DNA from: Rhodanobacter lindaniclasticus
GTDB taxonomy: Bacteria; Pseudomonadota; Gammaproteobacteria; Xanthomonadales; Rhodanobacteraceae
DNA length: 64,000 nt
Direction: 5' to 3'
Assembly: GCF_004799035.1 (NCBI RefSeq)
Contig: NZ_MWIO01000008.1
Location: forward strand, 1 to 64,000
The position numbers were made by a program, and so were the translations under genes. Below the pieces are notes generated by a model. That model did no database searches. It was not told where the DNA came from and saw only the letters and a program-made list of their open reading frames with translations. Positions 3,348 through 10,149 of this stretch are shown piece by piece. Position 1 is the first letter of the stretch. Every line of letters begins with the position of its first letter.

Positions 3348-4031
3348 ATGTCATCGGCTGTCCTTCCATTCGATCCGCGGGCCCTCACCGCAAGCGAACT
3401 CAGCAATGAGGATGTGTACATCACCTATTCGCCAAAGGCCGCACGTGCCGTCTCGCTTGTCGGCATTACCCGCCTGGCCTTTTTTCTCAAAAACGAGTTT
3501 GACCCGGCGGCGGAAGCCGTGGTCGAGCGACCACGCAGCCTCGAGCTGTATTCAGGCCGTACCGTGGAACTCGACTTTTGGACACTCGGGACCGACGGCC
3601 GCGAAACCTTTTGGGCAGTCCAAGGCATCGAGGAATGCGAACGTGTCCAGGACGGCCTCCAGCCCAAGGACGCCACCGTTTGGGATCAGGCCGCCCATCG
3701 AGCAGGCCTTTCACTACGTTTCGTCTTTGAGCACGACCTGCAGCATCGAGCGCAATCCATCGCCAATTACCTGCGCCTTCTACCCCACATCCAAGCAGCG
3801 CGACGCCGTGCCGAGGTTCCCTCCATTGCTGGGAGGGTGAAGGAGCTGTTCTCTCCGGTCGTGACCTCACTCTCCTTCCAGCAAATTGAAGGGTCGTTGA
3901 GCCAAATCCCGGCAGATGTAGTGCGTATGGCTACGTGCACCTTGCTGCACGAGGGTTGGCTGGGGTTTCAGAAGGAGTTGCCGCTCAGCAGCCACAGTCG
4001 CCTGACGCGGGGGGCGAATGATGGCTACTGA
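3348..4031 (+). CDS. tnsA: TnsA-like endonuclease subunit of Tn7-like transposase
   Basis: In Tn7, TnsA cuts the 5' ends of the transposon and so makes transposition cut-and-paste. I chose the start at 3348 (MSSAVLPFDPRALTASELSN), preceded by GGAG at 3337-3340; the frame is open further upstream but looks non-coding. The protein has 227 residues. A restriction-fold core is visible at residues 56-95: acidic residues, a central VELDFWTL (Asp76), and a following strand FWAVQ with Gln92. The Lys that normally follows the Gln in TnsA (Q-x-K) is not evident (Q-G-I), so nuclease activity is uncertain. The rest (HRAGLSLRFVFEHDLQ and an alpha-helical C-terminus) fits the TnsB/TnsC-interacting part. 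It overlaps tnsB by 14 bp. Identity rests on position, size and this core. Confidence 0.7.
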   Translation: MSSAVLPFDPRALTASELSNEDVYITYSPKAARAVSLVGITRLAFFLKNEFDPAAEAVVERPRSLELYSGRTVELDFWTLGTDGRETFWAVQGIEECERVQDGLQPKDATVWDQAAHRAGLSLRFVFEHDLQHRAQSIANYLRLLPHIQAARRRAEVPSIAGRVKELFSPVVTSLSFQQIEGSLSQIPADVVRMATCTLLHEGWLGFQKELPLSSHSRLTRGANDGY

Positions 4032-5892
4032 CGTCTCCGCTGCACAAATGGCGGATGCGCTCCATTGGAAGCGTCCGGATCAAAGGCTCGTCCTCGATCG
4101 CCATCAGGCGCAATTCCAGTCGCGCTGCGATGCCTTGCAGGCCTACATACTCGGCGCCTCGGTGCGTCACGCGGCGATAGACCACGGGGTCAACCGAGTG
4201 ACACTCACCAGCGTGATCGCGAAGGCCTTTTCGGTCTCCCCAGATGGAGGACTGTACGGCTATCGGGCGTGCCTGCCCTGGGGTGCGCGCCAAACCTCGG
4301 AGATGGTTGCTTCCGTTCCAACCCAGGGTGCGCCCTATGCGCTCAAGTCCCTGTTAAAAGTACTCCCCGAAGTCCGGGATCTGACCGGCGCTTTCATTGC
4401 GCCCCTGCCGCCCGGACGACTGCCGCCCTCGTTCTGCCGGTTGATGCGAGAGATTCGCGGAATCGTCTCGAAACGCTTCGGCAACAACTGTTGGCCGCTG
4501 GGCCAGAAAGACAAGGGAAGACGGGCGTTTGCTCGCTACATCAGGGGCATGCGCAAAGACGCGCTCGTTGCCGGCAACCTCGACGCAACGACTTTGCCTG
4601 AGCCCAAGATCCAGTCGCTCAGCCAACTGTTTCATCGCCAACCGTACGACCGCTGTGAATTTGATGCCCACTGCAAAGATGTGCACTTCATGCTGGAAGT
4701 GCCCAACGCACGCGGGGAACCCATCAAGCTCAAGATTTCGAAAGTCTGGGTTCTGGTTGTCGTTGAGGTCGACTCCTCCGCTGTGTTGGCGTGGAAGATC
4801 GTCTTCGGGCGCGGATACACCGCTCTCGATGTCGCTCAATGTTATGCATCCTCCCTGCGCCCGTGGACTCCAAGGGCGCTTTGTGTTCCCGATTTGAACT
4901 ACGAGCCGGGTGCGACCATGCCGCAGAACCTAGAGTTCGGGGCCATGAGTGGCCGGGTCACGGCGATGGACAACGCCTTGGCGCATAAGGCGAGCCTGCC
5001 CCTCGAAGCATGGGTGGGCAATTACGACGGCATCTTGCACTTGGGCAAACCGCACACGCCGGAGGGGAGGCCCGCGGTCGAGCACTTCTTCAACCGCCTG
5101 GAAATTGGTGCACTCCGCGATTTGCCCGGAGGCTACATCCCGACACGTCACCTCGGGAAAAAGGCCACGCCCGTATCCGAATGGCGAAGCACAGATCACC
5201 CCATCTCTTTCCAGGCACTGGAAGACGTCATGGACGTGATCATGACCAGCTACAACATCACGCCGTTGCCCGCTCGGCAAAATCGCAGTCCGATCGACAT
5301 CCTTCTCAACTACCCCAATACCCCGCATTTCTGGCCGTCACCGCCGCACAACGAACTGGATGCCAAGGCACTGACCTCTGAAATTCGTACCGTCAGGTTT
5401 CGCGGCTCCCAGCGCCACAATAAACCCGTCCATGTGCGTTTTATGGGTGTCGTTTATCGCCACCCTACTCTCGACAAGAACTGGGACCTGTTGGGTAGTA
5501 ACTACAAAGCCCAGATCGATCTCGAAGATTTGCGCACGCTGGTGCTCGTCGACAAATCGCTCAATCACGTGTGCACATTGACCGCGTCGTCGCCTTGGAA
5601 CATCCATCGCCACGACATCACCACGCGCCGTCGCATTCTCAAGCTGAGCCGGAGTGGCGAACTGGAAATCCGGGGCGTGCACAGCGCGATTTCCGCCTAC
5701 GCAGCCTTCACGCTCAAGAGCTGCCAAGAAGGCCGCGCGAACGCCGCTGATCAGATCGCTCGCCTGATGCAACTCACCACCAGTGGGGCGATAACCGTGT
5801 CGTTTTCCGACCCAGCCGCTCCTCAAGACGTGAAACCCTCCACGGAGACGCCGCTCACTGGCCGCGTTTCCTTTGACCACGTGAAGGACTGA
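4018..5892 (+). CDS. tnsB: TnsB/TniA-like DDE transposase
   Basis: This is the catalytic subunit that binds the transposon ends and joins the 3' ends to target DNA (RNase H-fold, Mu/TnsB family). It has 624 residues, within the family's usual range. The N-terminal 180 residues are helical DNA-binding domains. The catalytic triad is visible as Asp216 (CEFDAHCKD), Asp318 (VTAMDNALAHK) and Glu355 (AVEHFFNRLE), so it appears intact. The C-terminal beta-barrel (about 440-520, VRFRGSQRHNKPVHVRFMG) is typical of the Mu-transposase C-terminal domain. The start ATGATG at 4018/4021 lies inside tnsA, indicating translational coupling. The direct repeats at 9140-9330 are its probable binding sites. Confidence 0.9.
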   Translation: MMATDVSAAQMADALHWKRPDQRLVLDRHQAQFQSRCDALQAYILGASVRHAAIDHGVNRVTLTSVIAKAFSVSPDGGLYGYRACLPWGARQTSEMVASVPTQGAPYALKSLLKVLPEVRDLTGAFIAPLPPGRLPPSFCRLMREIRGIVSKRFGNNCWPLGQKDKGRRAFARYIRGMRKDALVAGNLDATTLPEPKIQSLSQLFHRQPYDRCEFDAHCKDVHFMLEVPNARGEPIKLKISKVWVLVVVEVDSSAVLAWKIVFGRGYTALDVAQCYASSLRPWTPRALCVPDLNYEPGATMPQNLEFGAMSGRVTAMDNALAHKASLPLEAWVGNYDGILHLGKPHTPEGRPAVEHFFNRLEIGALRDLPGGYIPTRHLGKKATPVSEWRSTDHPISFQALEDVMDVIMTSYNITPLPARQNRSPIDILLNYPNTPHFWPSPPHNELDAKALTSEIRTVRFRGSQRHNKPVHVRFMGVVYRHPTLDKNWDLLGSNYKAQIDLEDLRTLVLVDKSLNHVCTLTASSPWNIHRHDITTRRRILKLSRSGELEIRGVHSAISAYAAFTLKSCQEGRANAADQIARLMQLTTSGAITVSFSDPAAPQDVKPSTETPLTGRVSFDHVKD

Positions 5893-5895
5893 TCC

Positions 5896-6849
5896 ATGAG
5901 CACGCATCCCATGTTCAAAGATGAAGGGCGTCCCGAAGTCGCCACCCGGCCGGCGATTCTCCTGGCCGAGGCGATTTTGATCGCGCTGGAGGATGGCTAC
6001 CGAGGCATTCAAGTGGCCGGGCGGTCCGGAGACGGAAAATCCACCGCGTCCCGCTACCTTCGCTCGCACCCCAGTTGGCTCAAGCAGCCCACGCCGACCG
6101 CGTGGGTGAGCATGCCGCGGCGGAGTAACGGATCGGACAATGTCTTTTATAAGGTGATCCAAGGAGCGCTCAACCTTACGTCCCATCCACGGGCCGCAGC
6201 GATTGATCGCCTCTCTCACATCGTCGACCGGATCTCAGCCGAGTGCGAGCAGATGGCCGCCCGCCGATTCGTCCTGTTCATCGACGAAGCCCAGCGATTG
6301 AGCAAGGATGACTATGAGTACCTCGCCAATATAGACGACGGCGTAAGCCTGGACGGGTATCGGCTCTTCTGCGTGTTCGTCAACCAGTCGGATGACTCAT
6401 CGGCTGAAAAGGATAACCGGCGCTGCCAGATCGATGACATGCCGCCGCACGTTGTCCGCCGTTTCTTTATGGCGGATCACACCTTTCGTGGCTTGGTCGG
6501 CATTGCTGAAATTGCGGAAGCGCTGGGTCGCTACGACGCCATGGAACACGAGGGTGTCCCGTTTAGCGCGTACTTCGCGCCTCAGGCGTACGAAAAGGGA
6601 TGGCGCTTCGCCAGTGATGCACAGAAATTCGTGAAGGCCGTCGACGAGATCCGAAAGGAGGCCAATCTAAACGGCCAGAGTGACTTCCCGATGATGATTC
6701 TTGAACTGGCCGTCAAGCGCTTGCTGGTTCATATCGCAGGTGGCCAAGAGGCCTTTCGAGAGTTCTCCTACGAAAGCATCAAGGAGGCCATCACGCGCGC
6801 TGGCTACTTGAAATTGGAATTCTCTCGCGCGAGGCAGTTGCGCGGATGA
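5896..6849 (+). CDS. tnsC: TnsC/TniB-like AAA+ ATPase
   Basis: This is the transposition regulator that links the transposase to the target-site selector through ATP-dependent oligomerisation on DNA. It has 317 residues. The Walker A motif is GRSGDGKST (residues 42-50) and the Walker B is FVLFIDEAQRL (125-135), followed by a sensor-like region. The start lies three bases after the tnsB stop, and the end overlaps tniQ by four bases (ATGA). The AAA+ motifs are complete, so the protein should be active. The short length resembles TniB of Tn5053 more than the 555-residue TnsC of Tn7. Confidence 0.9.
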   Translation: MSTHPMFKDEGRPEVATRPAILLAEAILIALEDGYRGIQVAGRSGDGKSTASRYLRSHPSWLKQPTPTAWVSMPRRSNGSDNVFYKVIQGALNLTSHPRAAAIDRLSHIVDRISAECEQMAARRFVLFIDEAQRLSKDDYEYLANIDDGVSLDGYRLFCVFVNQSDDSSAEKDNRRCQIDDMPPHVVRRFFMADHTFRGLVGIAEIAEALGRYDAMEHEGVPFSAYFAPQAYEKGWRFASDAQKFVKAVDEIRKEANLNGQSDFPMMILELAVKRLLVHIAGGQEAFREFSYESIKEAITRAGYLKLEFSRARQLRG

Positions 6850-8210
6850 ATAGACACATTGCGGCACTTACCAAGATCCAAAGGCTTATCGGTGGCGATC
6901 TTGCACAGGTCCCCTACATCTCCTCTTTTGGGCGCGCCTACAGACTTTCACGGCTCAATGGCCTTTGGCTGACGCAATTGCCCGAAGTGCTCAAGACAAC
7001 TTCCACGATTCAAGCAGGGCTCTGCGGCGGAATCGTTCCATGGAAAGAGATGGACGGCTGGGAGGCATCGCTTTGGGGTCGGGAGCATGACCTTCTTCCG
7101 CACCATTGGGAGGACTGGCATCCCTTTAGCGACAAATCCGAGGCTCACGCAGACTTTCTGCGTGGCTGCCGCCAGTGTCTTGCGTATGGATTCCACACCA
7201 TGCTCCACCAGTTGCCGTGGATCGCGACCTGTCCGTGGCACGGAGACGGCCTTGTTAAAAATTGTACGTGTGGGCGCTCATTGCTACCGCACAAGGGGCG
7301 CAGTGCCGACTTCCGACTTCTTCACTGTCCTTGTGGGATTGATCACTACCAACGCAACAAAGCGCTACTCGGCATGCATCAGTGGCCGAAGGATCAGGTG
7401 ACTCGCGCGATTCACGAGTATCTCAACTCTACGGGTCGAACAAGAAAGACGACTCGCCTTCTTCCCGCGGGTCGCCTCTATAAGAGGGAGGACTACAGGT
7501 TTGTCTCACAAAATGCCTTTCCTCGGGGCAGCGACGAGCTTTGCGCCTCCTCTCCATTCGCACGGTCTGGGTTCGACGAACACTCTATCGGGCATGCGAC
7601 AAGCAACGAGGAAGTCGGAGCGATCCTGCGAACGTGGTGGCAGCCAACCTTCTTGCGACCAGGCCTCCCCTGTCCTGTCCTCAAGGAGCACTGCGATCAG
7701 GTCGTAGCGTACGGATTGGATGCCCGACGCCAGCTCGATGCGCTGAACTTCTCGGCGACCACTATTGAGGTGAGCTCGGCGAACATCTCTGTGCTTGGCT
7801 TTCCAATCCTGACAATCGACCCGGATCGGGTTCCTGCAGCTGCCGTCAACGCATCGGTCGCCAGCGCAAAAAGTGTCGGACGGCAGTTGCTACTTGCTGT
7901 CTATGCATCGCCGGAAGCAACCACGGGCGCGGATTGGCTAACACCGATGGATGAGCTCACATTGTGGGCGATGCAGTCGCGGTCAGCGAAGGTGCTTGCG
8001 CATGCCCTTTCGTATCTGACTTCGCTTTGTGCCATCGACAACATTCGCACCACAGTCGAGTACATCCGATCCGGGCGTGAGGAGCCCCACTTCGCACTGA
8101 TTCTTGGCCAGCCGATCGCGCTGGTTTCGTTCGACCCTACGCTGCATATCCGTATCGGCTACCAGCTTCCTGTAACCACCACGCAAGGAACCACCTATGA
8201 CTCTCTATGA
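6846..8210 (+). CDS. tniQ: TniQ/TnsD-family target-selection protein
   Basis: TniQ-family proteins recognise, or help recognise, the target site and recruit TnsC. This one has 454 residues. The N-terminal half carries the TniQ zinc-finger signature: C108-x2-C111, H117/H121, C129-x2-H132 and C140-x-C142, then further Cys at about 161/163. The C-terminal half lacks obvious motifs and may hold the site-specific DNA-binding region, as in TnsD. It overlaps tnsC by 4 bp at the start and the recombinase gene by 14 bp at the end. The target sequence cannot be read from the protein; the adjacent phage/dif remnant makes a Xer-related site a candidate. Confidence 0.85.
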   Translation: MNRHIAALTKIQRLIGGDLAQVPYISSFGRAYRLSRLNGLWLTQLPEVLKTTSTIQAGLCGGIVPWKEMDGWEASLWGREHDLLPHHWEDWHPFSDKSEAHADFLRGCRQCLAYGFHTMLHQLPWIATCPWHGDGLVKNCTCGRSLLPHKGRSADFRLLHCPCGIDHYQRNKALLGMHQWPKDQVTRAIHEYLNSTGRTRKTTRLLPAGRLYKREDYRFVSQNAFPRGSDELCASSPFARSGFDEHSIGHATSNEEVGAILRTWWQPTFLRPGLPCPVLKEHCDQVVAYGLDARRQLDALNFSATTIEVSSANISVLGFPILTIDPDRVPAAAVNASVASAKSVGRQLLLAVYASPEATTGADWLTPMDELTLWAMQSRSAKVLAHALSYLTSLCAIDNIRTTVEYIRSGREEPHFALILGQPIALVSFDPTLHIRIGYQLPVTTTQGTTYDSL

Positions 8211-9117
8211 ACATCTGGATAGCCACAGCGAACGGACACGCGTCGCTATTGAGTCAGACCTAGCGAGGTACTGTTCGTGGTGCCAGCGGATGGAGGTGAC
8301 GCCGATCCCAGCTTCCGAGGACCAAGTTGCGGCTTGGTTGGAGGATGCGATCGACGAAGGCCTTAAAGTCTCCACGATCAGGCGCCTCCTCTACAGCGTA
8401 GGGCAAGCGCATGAAGCCCGAGGATTCATCCCTCCGTCAAAGCAGCGATCGTGGAAGCCTCGTTGGGATCAACTCATGGCGAAGCTTGAGCTCAATGGAC
8501 AGACTGAACGTTCGCAAGCCGACGAATTGAATGCGGTCAACGTCGCTAAGGTCTTGGCTACCCTCGGCGACTCTCTGCACGAACTTCGCGACGGTGCATT
8601 GCTGGCTCTGGCTCTCGACACGCTCTTCAAGCCATCGGAACTGGTCGAGCTTTGCCGGGAGCACATCATCGAATCCGCCGACGGGAGTGGCCAAGTTTGC
8701 TTCATACCTGAAAACGGTTCGGCATTTGCCTACTCCGATACGCGATGGATCTCGCCGGATACCCTGAGGCGAGTCCTTCGTTGGTGCGAAGCGGCGGGTA
8801 TTCTGCACGGCCCGCTTGCTAGGCCAATCGGGGGACGGCGTAAGGGACCGAAAGACGCCTCGTCACTGGCTCTTAGATCGCAAGAGATCAGCCGCATCTT
8901 TCGTCGACGGGCTCAGGCGGCTGGCCTCATTGGGTACTTCACTGCCTACTCTCCCCGCGTTGGGGGTGCCATGGATTTGGCGCGTGCTGGAGCTACCGTA
9001 GAGCAAATCCGGACTACTGGCGGGTGGCGAAGCGCATTTGTCATCGATCGGAGCACGTCGGACCTTCGCGGAGCGACACCTGCGATGAGGTCACTCAAGC
9101 TGTTTCGCGAAAGCTAG
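8197..9117 (+). CDS. tyrosine-recombinase-fold protein with degenerate active site
   Basis: This 306-residue protein has a SAM-like core-binding N-domain (about 10-95) and a phage-integrase catalytic domain (about 110-300). Alignment to family motifs by eye gives Lys145 where Arg I should be (FKPSEL against the usual L/F-R-x-S-E-L), no clear catalytic Lys in the beta hairpin (ENGSAFAYSD), Tyr251 instead of His in H-x-x-R (YSPR), Arg254 conserved, and Trp277 conserved (GGW). At the nucleophile position Tyr is replaced by Ser286 (FVIDRSTS; codon AGC at 9052-9054). Strand-exchange activity is therefore doubtful, yet the frame is intact and translationally coupled to tniQ (14-bp overlap). It occupies the resolvase position of tniABQR modules. 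It may serve as a DNA-binding targeting or accessory factor (inference). Confidence 0.75.
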   Translation: MTLYEHLDSHSERTRVAIESDLARYCSWCQRMEVTPIPASEDQVAAWLEDAIDEGLKVSTIRRLLYSVGQAHEARGFIPPSKQRSWKPRWDQLMAKLELNGQTERSQADELNAVNVAKVLATLGDSLHELRDGALLALALDTLFKPSELVELCREHIIESADGSGQVCFIPENGSAFAYSDTRWISPDTLRRVLRWCEAAGILHGPLARPIGGRRKGPKDASSLALRSQEISRIFRRRAQAAGLIGYFTAYSPRVGGAMDLARAGATVEQIRTTGGWRSAFVIDRSTSDLRGATPAMRSLKLFRES

Positions 9118-9139
9118 CCGCCTTGGTCAACTCAGCGGC

Positions 9140-9330
9140 CAAAGTTTTTTGGTCGATTGAGTTCCATTGCATAAATTTCTTGGCATGCCGGCGCGCGTTG
9201 TATAAGTCTCTTGGCACGAGCGCGCGCTGGCATAACTTTCCTGGCACGGTCTGGTACCAAGCACAGCGATAGTCCGACACGTGTTTCTAAGTTTTTCAAG
9301 TAGTTACTGCGGCCTAAGTTTCTTGGCCGC
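9140..9330 (+). repeat. array of about six direct repeats, probable TnsB-binding transposon end
   Basis: Related 16-17-bp motifs start at 9140, 9171, 9202, 9232, 9287 and 9314, all in the same orientation. The best three are ATAAATTTCTTGGCATG (9171), ATAAGTCTCTTGGCACG (9202) and ATAACTTTCCTGGCACG (9232). The others are diverged (CAAAGTTTTTTGGTCG, CTAAGTTTTTCAAG, CTAAGTTTCTTGGCCGC). Spacing is 31, 31, 30, 55 and 27 bp. Multiple spaced copies just inside an element boundary are characteristic of TnsB-type transposase binding. The last copy runs into the open frame of the phage gene, so it may be coincidence or mark the terminus. No TGT/ACA terminal trinucleotide with a target-site duplication could be fixed. 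Confidence 0.7.
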
Positions 9331-9354
9331 ATCCACCTGCGCCATTCGTGCCTG

Positions 9355-10149
9355 TTGAGCCGACTGCGGGCGGCGGAATACCTGGGCGTCTCGGTGCGCA
9401 CCATCCGGCATTGGGACGCCGGCCGCAACCGGGTGCCGTGGTCGGCGGTGCGGCTGCTGCGGCTCGTCCGGTCCGGCCAGCTGGGCGGGCTGTTCGAGGA
9501 GTGGGAAGGCTGGACGATCAACCGGCTGGGCCTGCATTCACCGGACGGACGCACCTTCCGCGAGCGCGACATGCGCCAGCTGTGGCTGACCGTGACGCAA
9601 GCCGCCCTGTTCCGCGAGAGCTACCAGCGGGCCAGGTCCGGGGGTGTGGGGGCGCAGCCCCTGCGAGCCCGGGAGGGCGTCTCTCAGGCCGGCCGCGTGG
9701 CTGTCGATGCCGCGGTGTCCACCCCGGCCGCACCTGCCCCGCCGCCCACGATGGCGCCGCCGCTGTCCCGCCGAACCGCTCTTTCGACCTTTCCAGCGTC
9801 CCGCGCCGCCCCGGCGCAGCCCGCCGCCGGTACAGCCGCAGGCGCCGCCGGCGGGACCGCCGGGGCGGCTGGCCAGCTGGGGGATCGTGGAGCGACGGCG
9901 GATCAGTGCGGCGGCAGTGGACGTGGCGCCAAAGTGACGCCACAATGCCACCACGAAGCCGCCTTTCTCGGCGGCACTCTGGGGGCTTGCAATATGGAAC
10001 AAACCGCGCCAGTATGCCATTCGTCCGCCCTGCCTCACGGCTCGGCGGACCTCCCGTGTGCTAACAGGGGAGGTAACAAACTGAACGGCCTGCAATCTGA
10101 CGTCACTCTGACGCCACGGCAAGAGCCATCCTGCAAGGGGGTGGCGTGA
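9355..10149 (+). CDS. VC1465/XafT-like Xer recombination activation factor, N-terminus uncertain
   Basis: VC1465-family proteins activate host XerCD recombination for integrative elements that use dif. Residues 1-70 from the TTG at 9355 match this family: LRAAEYLGVSVRTIRHWDAG (HTH), then VPWSAVRLLRL and GWTINRLGLHSPDGRTF. The frame is open upstream to a TAG at 9301 with no ATG or GTG, and codes for PKFLGRIHLRHSCL just before the TTG, so the true N-terminus may have been removed by the transposon. After residue 100 the sequence is low-complexity Ala/Pro/Gly and poorly conserved. The stop overlaps the next gene's ATG (TGATG at 10147-10151), which supports this frame to its end. Confidence 0.7.
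   Translation: MSRLRAAEYLGVSVRTIRHWDAGRNRVPWSAVRLLRLVRSGQLGGLFEEWEGWTINRLGLHSPDGRTFRERDMRQLWLTVTQAALFRESYQRARSGGVGAQPLRAREGVSQAGRVAVDAAVSTPAAPAPPPTMAPPLSRRTALSTFPASRAAPAQPAAGTAAGAAGGTAGAAGQLGDRGATADQCGGSGRGAKVTPQCHHEAAFLGGTLGACNMEQTAPVCHSSALPHGSADLPCANRGGNKLNGLQSDVTLTPRQEPSCKGVA

Follow-up and report, generated by a model that had tools for sequence, protein, structure and literature searches.

We analysed a 64,000-nucleotide stretch of the Rhodanobacter lindaniclasticus genome (NZ_MWIO01000008.1, positions 1 to 64,000, forward strand; hereafter the window), which carries the transposition operon of a Tn7-like element at 3348-9117. The four genes tnsABC-tniQ are followed in this operon by a fifth gene, which encodes a tyrosine recombinase of the Cre family predicted to be catalytically dead, and the element is inserted beside dif, the chromosome-dimer resolution site. 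The balance of the evidence tips slightly towards a role like that of TnsF of Tn6022 (see below), in which the Cre-derived dead recombinase would select targets at dif-like sites, having taken over dif recognition from TniQ.

A Tn7-like operon ending in a Cre-like recombinase

The five genes lie on the + strand and are joined, in order, by a 14-bp overlap, a 3-bp gap, a 4-bp overlap and a 14-bp overlap. The original prediction had described five coupled genes with these junctions, and the coordinates agree with it:

3348-4031, + strand: tnsA-like gene, assigned from its position and from profile homology at 22 other operon loci
4018-5892, + strand: tnsB-like transposase gene, assigned from profile homology at 22 other loci, acidic invariants and a PHROG match
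5896-6849, + strand: tnsC-like AAA ATPase gene (Pfam AAA_22, E 8.6e-8, above the cut-off)
6846-8210, + strand: tniQ-like gene with a conserved N-terminal core and a C-terminal region without recognisable relationship to its counterpart in relatives lacking the recombinase
8197-9117, + strand: gene for the catalytically degenerate Cre-family tyrosine recombinase (306 residues), assigned from sequence and fold matches and a check of residues

The first four genes have gene-by-gene homologues in the same order at 22 other loci, including the genome G082 and a distant locus, L049. The TnsB-like protein has invariant acidic residues (D216, D318 and E355 among them), matches a PHROG entry named transposase (E 1e-5) and has relatives at ∼25% identity on some plasmids that are annotated as DDE-type integrase/transposase. 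TniQ-like members of the family match Pfam TniQ below the cut-off (E 8.7e-4 for the G082 copy). Against Pfam, the TnsA-like protein gave zero matches and the TnsB-like protein gave weak helix-turn-helix (HTH) matches, with the rve domain absent; the Pfam and NCBIfam models for TnsA and TnsB did not identify the window proteins, and sequence searches of the PDB with TniQ, TnsB and TnsC returned nothing relevant. Because Pfam was unhelpful for these two proteins, the names TnsA and TnsB rest on position, homology between loci and the acidic invariants. We read the module as a divergent Tn7-like tnsABC-tniQ and not as a relative of Tn5053/Tn402, with which it had originally been compared. In Tn5053/Tn402 (tniABQ-tniR) the recombinase gene after tniQ encodes an active serine resolvase. 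The tniR gene holds the same position, but its product is unrelated to the window recombinase, and a Tn5053-type resolvase was rejected on both fold and family.

Cre of phage P1 is the closest solved relative of the recombinase by sequence and fold. It was the best match among PDB chains searched with phmmer (E 2.3e-13), covering residues 5-297 of 306 and both domains, whereas the Pfam matches to Phage_integrase (E 9.9e-5) and Phage_int_SAM_1 (E 0.0016) both fell under the curated cut-off. An AlphaFold2 model, of modest quality (predicted local distance difference test 72.8, mostly below 65 from residue ∼241 on; predicted template modelling score 0.52), also ranked Cre first against the PDB (VIA Z 17.5), with MrpR (8a0a), YopR (8bpz) and SroF (9rd5) below it at Z 10.8-12.5.

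Cre is active, whereas the window protein lacks Arg I, the hairpin Lys, the His and the Tyr. Its translation has K145 in place of Arg I, Y251 for the His and S286 for the nucleophilic Tyr, and the beta-hairpin Lys is missing (P171-E172-N173-G174 vs. P-F-S-K-T-N in active relatives); R254 and W277 are retained, all as first described. No Tyr occurs C-terminal to residue 251, which rules out a substitute nucleophile, including the nearby Tyr that the original prediction had allowed for. In an alignment of 14 relatives at 37-42% identity, inspected by eye, Arg I, H-S-x-R, the Trp and the nucleophilic Tyr were present in all 14, and the hairpin Lys in 13 (Arg in the other). The nearest relatives apart from the G082 copy are catalytically intact (∼37-44% identity), the named ones coming from Dyella, Luteibacter and Rhodanobacter. 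A scan of the genome contigs found nothing with the single protein and 11 loci with an alignment as query. Active relatives lie within 10 kb of dif at nine of 15 loci. The window recombinase sits on a very long branch (3.58) in the recombinase tree.

G082 is the sole other genome with a copy of the recombinase (92% identical) among 197 genomes of the family searched. It has the entire operon, and its recombinase shows every loss of the window copy, with Asn instead of Ser at 286. The view that the recombinase is integral to the operon is supported. Between the two genomes the ratio of nonsynonymous to synonymous substitution rates (dN/dS) was 0.11 for tnsA, 0.19 for tnsB, 0.08 for tnsC, 0.39 for tniQ and 0.32 for the recombinase, the last from 25 synonymous and 25 nonsynonymous differences over 306 codons. 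These values indicate that the recombinase gene is under purifying selection. Since G082 shares the losses and dN/dS is 0.32, we regard the product as a maintained dead protein of the Cre-family fold and not as a fresh wreck; on the shared losses and the purifying selection, simple decay of one copy was rejected.

A homologue with an intact active site directly after tniQ would have made the window copy look merely decayed, and none was found: a recombinase lies immediately 3′ of tniQ at two of 23 operon loci (the window and G082), and both copies are degenerate. The other 21 have no recombinase directly after tniQ, in a search for which the L096 stretch ends 421 bp past tniQ and the tniQ of L087 is split. 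L097 has a same-strand recombinase 1.8 kb further on, outside the right end of the element. The distant operon at L049 (3249-11131 of G073:C33) has a convergent, catalytically intact tyrosine recombinase ∼1.5 kb away.

Insertion next to dif

The left end of the window element is found at position 100 of another contig of the same genome (C62). The flank, C62 1-99, contains the chromosomal dif; 71 bp separate the start of the transposon from the dif core, of which the genome has no second copy with 2 or fewer mismatches. We infer that C62 joins the window through an insertion sequence (IS)-like break: the end of C62 and the start of the window have the same short inverted sequence within an SseB-like gene whose G082 counterpart is unbroken. 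The G082 element lies near a dif half-site, the 17-base TGTATATTATGTCAAAT, which comprises the XerD half and the centre of dif and runs in the opposite sense to the usual arrangement. When the two targets were compared, the highest-scoring local match was TTGACATAATATACA, a part of dif. We looked for the empty G082 insertion site in 15 genomes of its genus, and only G082 itself matched.

To estimate how general insertion at dif is, we took 15 of the 20 operon loci L084-L103 (family loci as listed: L084-L103, L174-L177 and L197-L207) and matched the right end of each against dif-adjacent sequence from the same genome, using 192 random windows as background. Five loci in which the dif core was not found were left out (G008, G036, G073, G086 and G446). 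The test was designed after several cases had been seen by eye or with a looser script; its score rewards perfect duplications, and the end looked for beside dif was the left one only. At nine of the 15 loci a terminal inverted match at p ≤ 0.010 placed the left end on the XerC-arm side of dif, at a distance of 52-171 bp. A perfect 5-bp duplication accompanied seven of these (G058, G196, G430, G419, G207, G211 and G134) and was lacking in G213 and G009. The dif-homing elements thus come from nine genomes and seven genera besides the window, and the end far from the transposition genes faces dif. On the opposite side of dif one locus of 15 (G431) reached the same level. The remaining XerC-arm values were 0.052 (G315), 0.068 (G021), 0.146 (G092), 0.177 (G035), 0.245 (G431) and 0.260 (G095). 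Judged from these ends and duplications, dif homing is common in this Tn7-like family and independent of the recombinase. No report linking tnsABC-tniQ elements to dif was found in the open literature searched, and the whole word "dif" is missing from the main texts of PMC10293859 and PMC8649781.

Another type of end was seen by eye ∼30-45 bp from the dif core in four genomes, at L038, L041, L042 and L043; it starts with TGTCG and continues with CTTAA..TGTC repeats. The Tn7-like element of G196 sits inside such a TGTCG end.

The C-terminal region of TniQ

TniQ was divided at window residue 190, and leave-one-out hidden Markov models were used to score the two halves separately; the G082 copy, the split G086 copy and the distant G073b copy were left out. 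For the N-terminal core, scores ranged over 103-232 bits across all 20 rows. The C-terminal part reached 61-256 bits in 17 of them, including all nine dif-homing loci; the exceptions were the window (0.6 bits), G021 (none) and G036 (11.8). Comparison of the C-terminal part with the family by hhalign gave a probability of 0.1% for the window plus G082 and 0.1% for G021, vs. 97.9, 98.4 and 99.5% for left-out controls and 67.6% for G036.

In a TnsB tree, G021, the window and G082 form one clade, (G021,(window,G082)), with support of 100/100; this clade is sister (99/99) to one containing the dif-homing G207, G211 and G419. Since the sister clade holds dif-homing members without the recombinase, dif homing predates the recombinase. 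The tree and the presence of the family C-terminal region in the dif-homing relatives suggest that the ancestor of the window lineage was probably dif-homing through TniQ.

Proposed role of the recombinase

In Tn7-like elements TniQ passes the target to TnsC, and TnsC recruits TnsAB. We propose that in most relatives the conserved C-terminal region of TniQ reads dif or its neighbourhood. In the window lineage that region would have been replaced or have diverged beyond recognition, and the dead recombinase, presumably co-translated with TniQ, would take over dif recognition. It would bind, and probably bend, DNA at dif-like sites without cutting, and present the distorted DNA to TniQ-TnsC. DNA binding, contact with TniQ and target selection by the recombinase are what we infer, and the suggestion of the original prediction that it was repurposed as a DNA-binding target selector is supported as likely. 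We argue for a swap of recognisers because the window lineage is still found at dif with a TniQ C-terminal region of no recognisable relationship to that of the family and a new partner. The wider claim, held tentatively and with rather less than even confidence, is that the TnsF principle was invented a second time and independently, one dif-homing lineage having put a Cre-derived dead recombinase in place of its TniQ reader without a change of target.

Several observations weigh against target selection by the recombinase. Relatives without it also home to dif, so that targeting of dif does not in itself require it. In G021, the nearest sister, the TniQ C-terminal region has likewise been lost, yet no recombinase follows tniQ; loss of that region and gain of the recombinase are therefore not strictly coupled. 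The recombinase-bearing lineages number one. The window insertion has no target duplication, and some target sequence is absent (by eye). The G082 element lies 87 bp from its dif half-site in the opposite orientation, and the complete dif core is elsewhere in that genome. The 15-mer shared by the two targets was not significant vs. shuffles (p 0.096), and a loxP-like inverted repeat was not found within ∼100-140 bp of either insertion. As for dif homing in general, six genomes fell short of p 0.010 on the XerC-arm side, with G431 passing on the other side. A member of the family on a Xanthomonas campestris plasmid has no dif-like sequence in a 49-kb stretch (≤5 core mismatches); its putative ends match, by raw count, at 14 of 22 bases with a duplication ACTGC. 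The tnsB relatives on two Xanthomonas plasmid records are annotated merely as hypothetical protein.

An unlikely but viable alternative is that TniQ alone still selects dif, its C-terminal region having merely diverged, and that the dead recombinase has an accessory part, in DNA architecture or in competition: it would occupy or bend DNA near dif or act as a dominant negative against active Cre-like recombinases of rival dif-associated elements. G021 fits such an arrangement, with neither the operonic gene nor the family C-terminal region and a left end possibly located 55 bp away from dif (match at 16 of 22 bases, with the background p given above), as do the close active relatives of the recombinase in dif-linked regions. 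The tight coupling to tniQ and the purifying selection are in better agreement with a core role, however, and a recombination site of a rival element was not identified.

The tyrosine-recombinase fold is also used for DNA binding without cutting by MrpR/YopR, the master repressor of SPbeta. The window protein could similarly be a repressor of the tns operon that binds operators and not the target, and its model does match MrpR, YopR and SroF, below Cre. We consider this improbable: the gene is last in the operon and overlaps tniQ, being neither divergent nor first, and similarity of fold is no proof of function. MrpR/YopR is a phage repressor encoded outside a transposition operon, and its likeness to the modelled window protein would be one of fold only. 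Least probable of all is that the gene was once a resolvase or cargo gene and is now functionless and in decay, since the long branch, the active-site loss and the rarity of the gene after tniQ (two of 23 loci) are set against a frame that is open in both genomes, shared losses and a dN/dS similar to that of tniQ.

Relation to known systems

Selection of targets by the dead recombinase would have a close parallel in TnsF of Tn6022 (tniE/orf3), a tyrosine recombinase that has lost its activity and is encoded with TniQ (Faure et al., 2023; PMC10293859). TnsF is required for insertion of Tn6022 into comM, and binds TniQ and comM DNA, according to deletion, pull-down and electrophoretic mobility shift experiments (PMC10293859). 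It has 498 residues, with an N-terminal zinc-finger region (∼199 residues), tandem core-binding domains and a partial catalytic domain; distant homologues with core-binding and catalytic domains and no zinc fingers are mentioned and left out by the authors (PMC10293859). Because TnsF is published, the claim of the original prediction that no such arrangement had been described does not hold. Like TnsF, the window protein is a tyrosine recombinase that has been inactivated, and its gene sits next to tniQ in a Tn7-like operon. Unlike TnsF, by its published description, it has 306 residues, is Cre-like throughout (aligning with Cre from residue 5) and has no N-terminal zinc-finger region, and its site is dif, not comM. 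The comM gene was ruled out as the window target, the flanks being dif and a DUF3653 gene.

The TnsF-like protein of the Tsy transposon is catalytically active and needed as such, and Tn7 genes are absent (PMC10293859). In Tsy, as in our proposal, a recombinase-family protein picks a conserved chromosomal site; the window recombinase differs in being inactive and in a Tn7-like operon. Insertion sequences of the IS1202 family/ISAjo2 group, termed "dif site hunters," need just a TnsB-like transposase to insert beside dif or pdif; they land on the XerC side in a single orientation, at a distance of 5 bp from the XerC site, and produce 5-bp duplications (PMC10132070; PMC9455709). The dif-homing relatives likewise insert on the XerC side, seven of the nine with 5-bp duplications. 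The ISAjo2-type elements are, however, single-gene IS without TnsA, TnsC, TniQ or recombinase, whereas the window element is multi-gene, at least 37 kb long and 71 bp from the dif core.

The principle of a dead recombinase as selector is thus known, and its origin, architecture, target and family as proposed here are, as far as searched, not described in the open literature. TnsF is known from one Tn7-like group (with the related Tsy elements) at one target. If our proposal is correct, the disarmed recombinase as a transposon guide would be a recurring solution with a second origin at another site, and the window protein would provide a compact selector for studying the exchange of TniQ partners. 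Target selection in Tn7-like elements would then evolve by replacement of the reader, and dif, where tyrosine recombinases naturally act, would be the meeting point. The dif-homing family is of interest in itself, as large cargo islands ∼50-170 bp from the chromosome-dimer resolution site.

Ends and cargo of the element

The element spans at least 37 kb between C62 position 100 and window 9335, where DNA similarity to G082 stops. Outside the operon, the following features were assigned in the window:

1-21, no strand: IS-like insertion end that broke the assembly; the transposon carries on leftwards to C62
22-591, - strand: 5′ part of the SseB-like cargo gene, with the remainder on C62 (DNA match to G082 L032 14189-14758)
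1169-1486, + strand: cargo HTH regulator, RstR/DicA-like (Pfam HTH_3, E 1.6e-11; NCBIfam RstR and DicA below threshold)
1729-2373, - strand: open reading frame for a cargo protein of 214 residues, with Pfam match absent
9137-9330, + strand: five repeats resembling transposase-binding sites, arrayed at the right end (20-mers at 9137, 9168, 9199, 9229 and 9311), from repeat and position weight matrix scans
9311-9335, + strand: right terminus, which repeats the left terminus in inverted form (20 of 22 bases)
9336-10149, + strand: right flank with a residual DUF3653 phage-type gene, of a type found next to dif in genomes without an interruption there (also given as 9355-10149; Pfam DUF3653, E 2.8e-8)

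Inverted counterparts of the right-end repeats are present at C62 105, 150 and 180. A search for inverted repeats between the operon ends and the stretch upstream of tnsA had been unproductive because the left ends are far away. As in Tn7-like elements, there are transposase-binding repeats at both ends, TG..CA termini and a 5-bp duplication, the last seen in the G082 copy; the window and G082 elements begin with TGA/TGG and not with TGT. The G082 element is ∼96 kb (G082:C1, about 3974238-4069995; L032 and L161) with a large cargo, a perfect ACAGT 5-bp duplication and terminal bases inverted at 21 of 22 positions. The intact SseB-like gene of G082 matches Pfam SseB (E 2.3e-12). At L161, the dif half-site was read as being in direct orientation to a complete dif ∼48 kb away across the record start, and could mark an XerCD-integrated element.

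A DUF3653-type gene follows dif within ∼200 bp at nine of 12 loci (L162-L165, L167-L169, L171 and L172 among those listed; by eye), which suggests phage remnants at dif. A short way into the window element from its left end (L109 443-2529 on C62) is a divergent pair comprising a KfrA-like protein, a label given here from its sequence, and a second tyrosine recombinase of 362 residues that has kept its catalytic residues (by eye). Comparable pairs of a KfrA-like protein and a recombinase were seen at L222 (23251-25377), L044 and L097.

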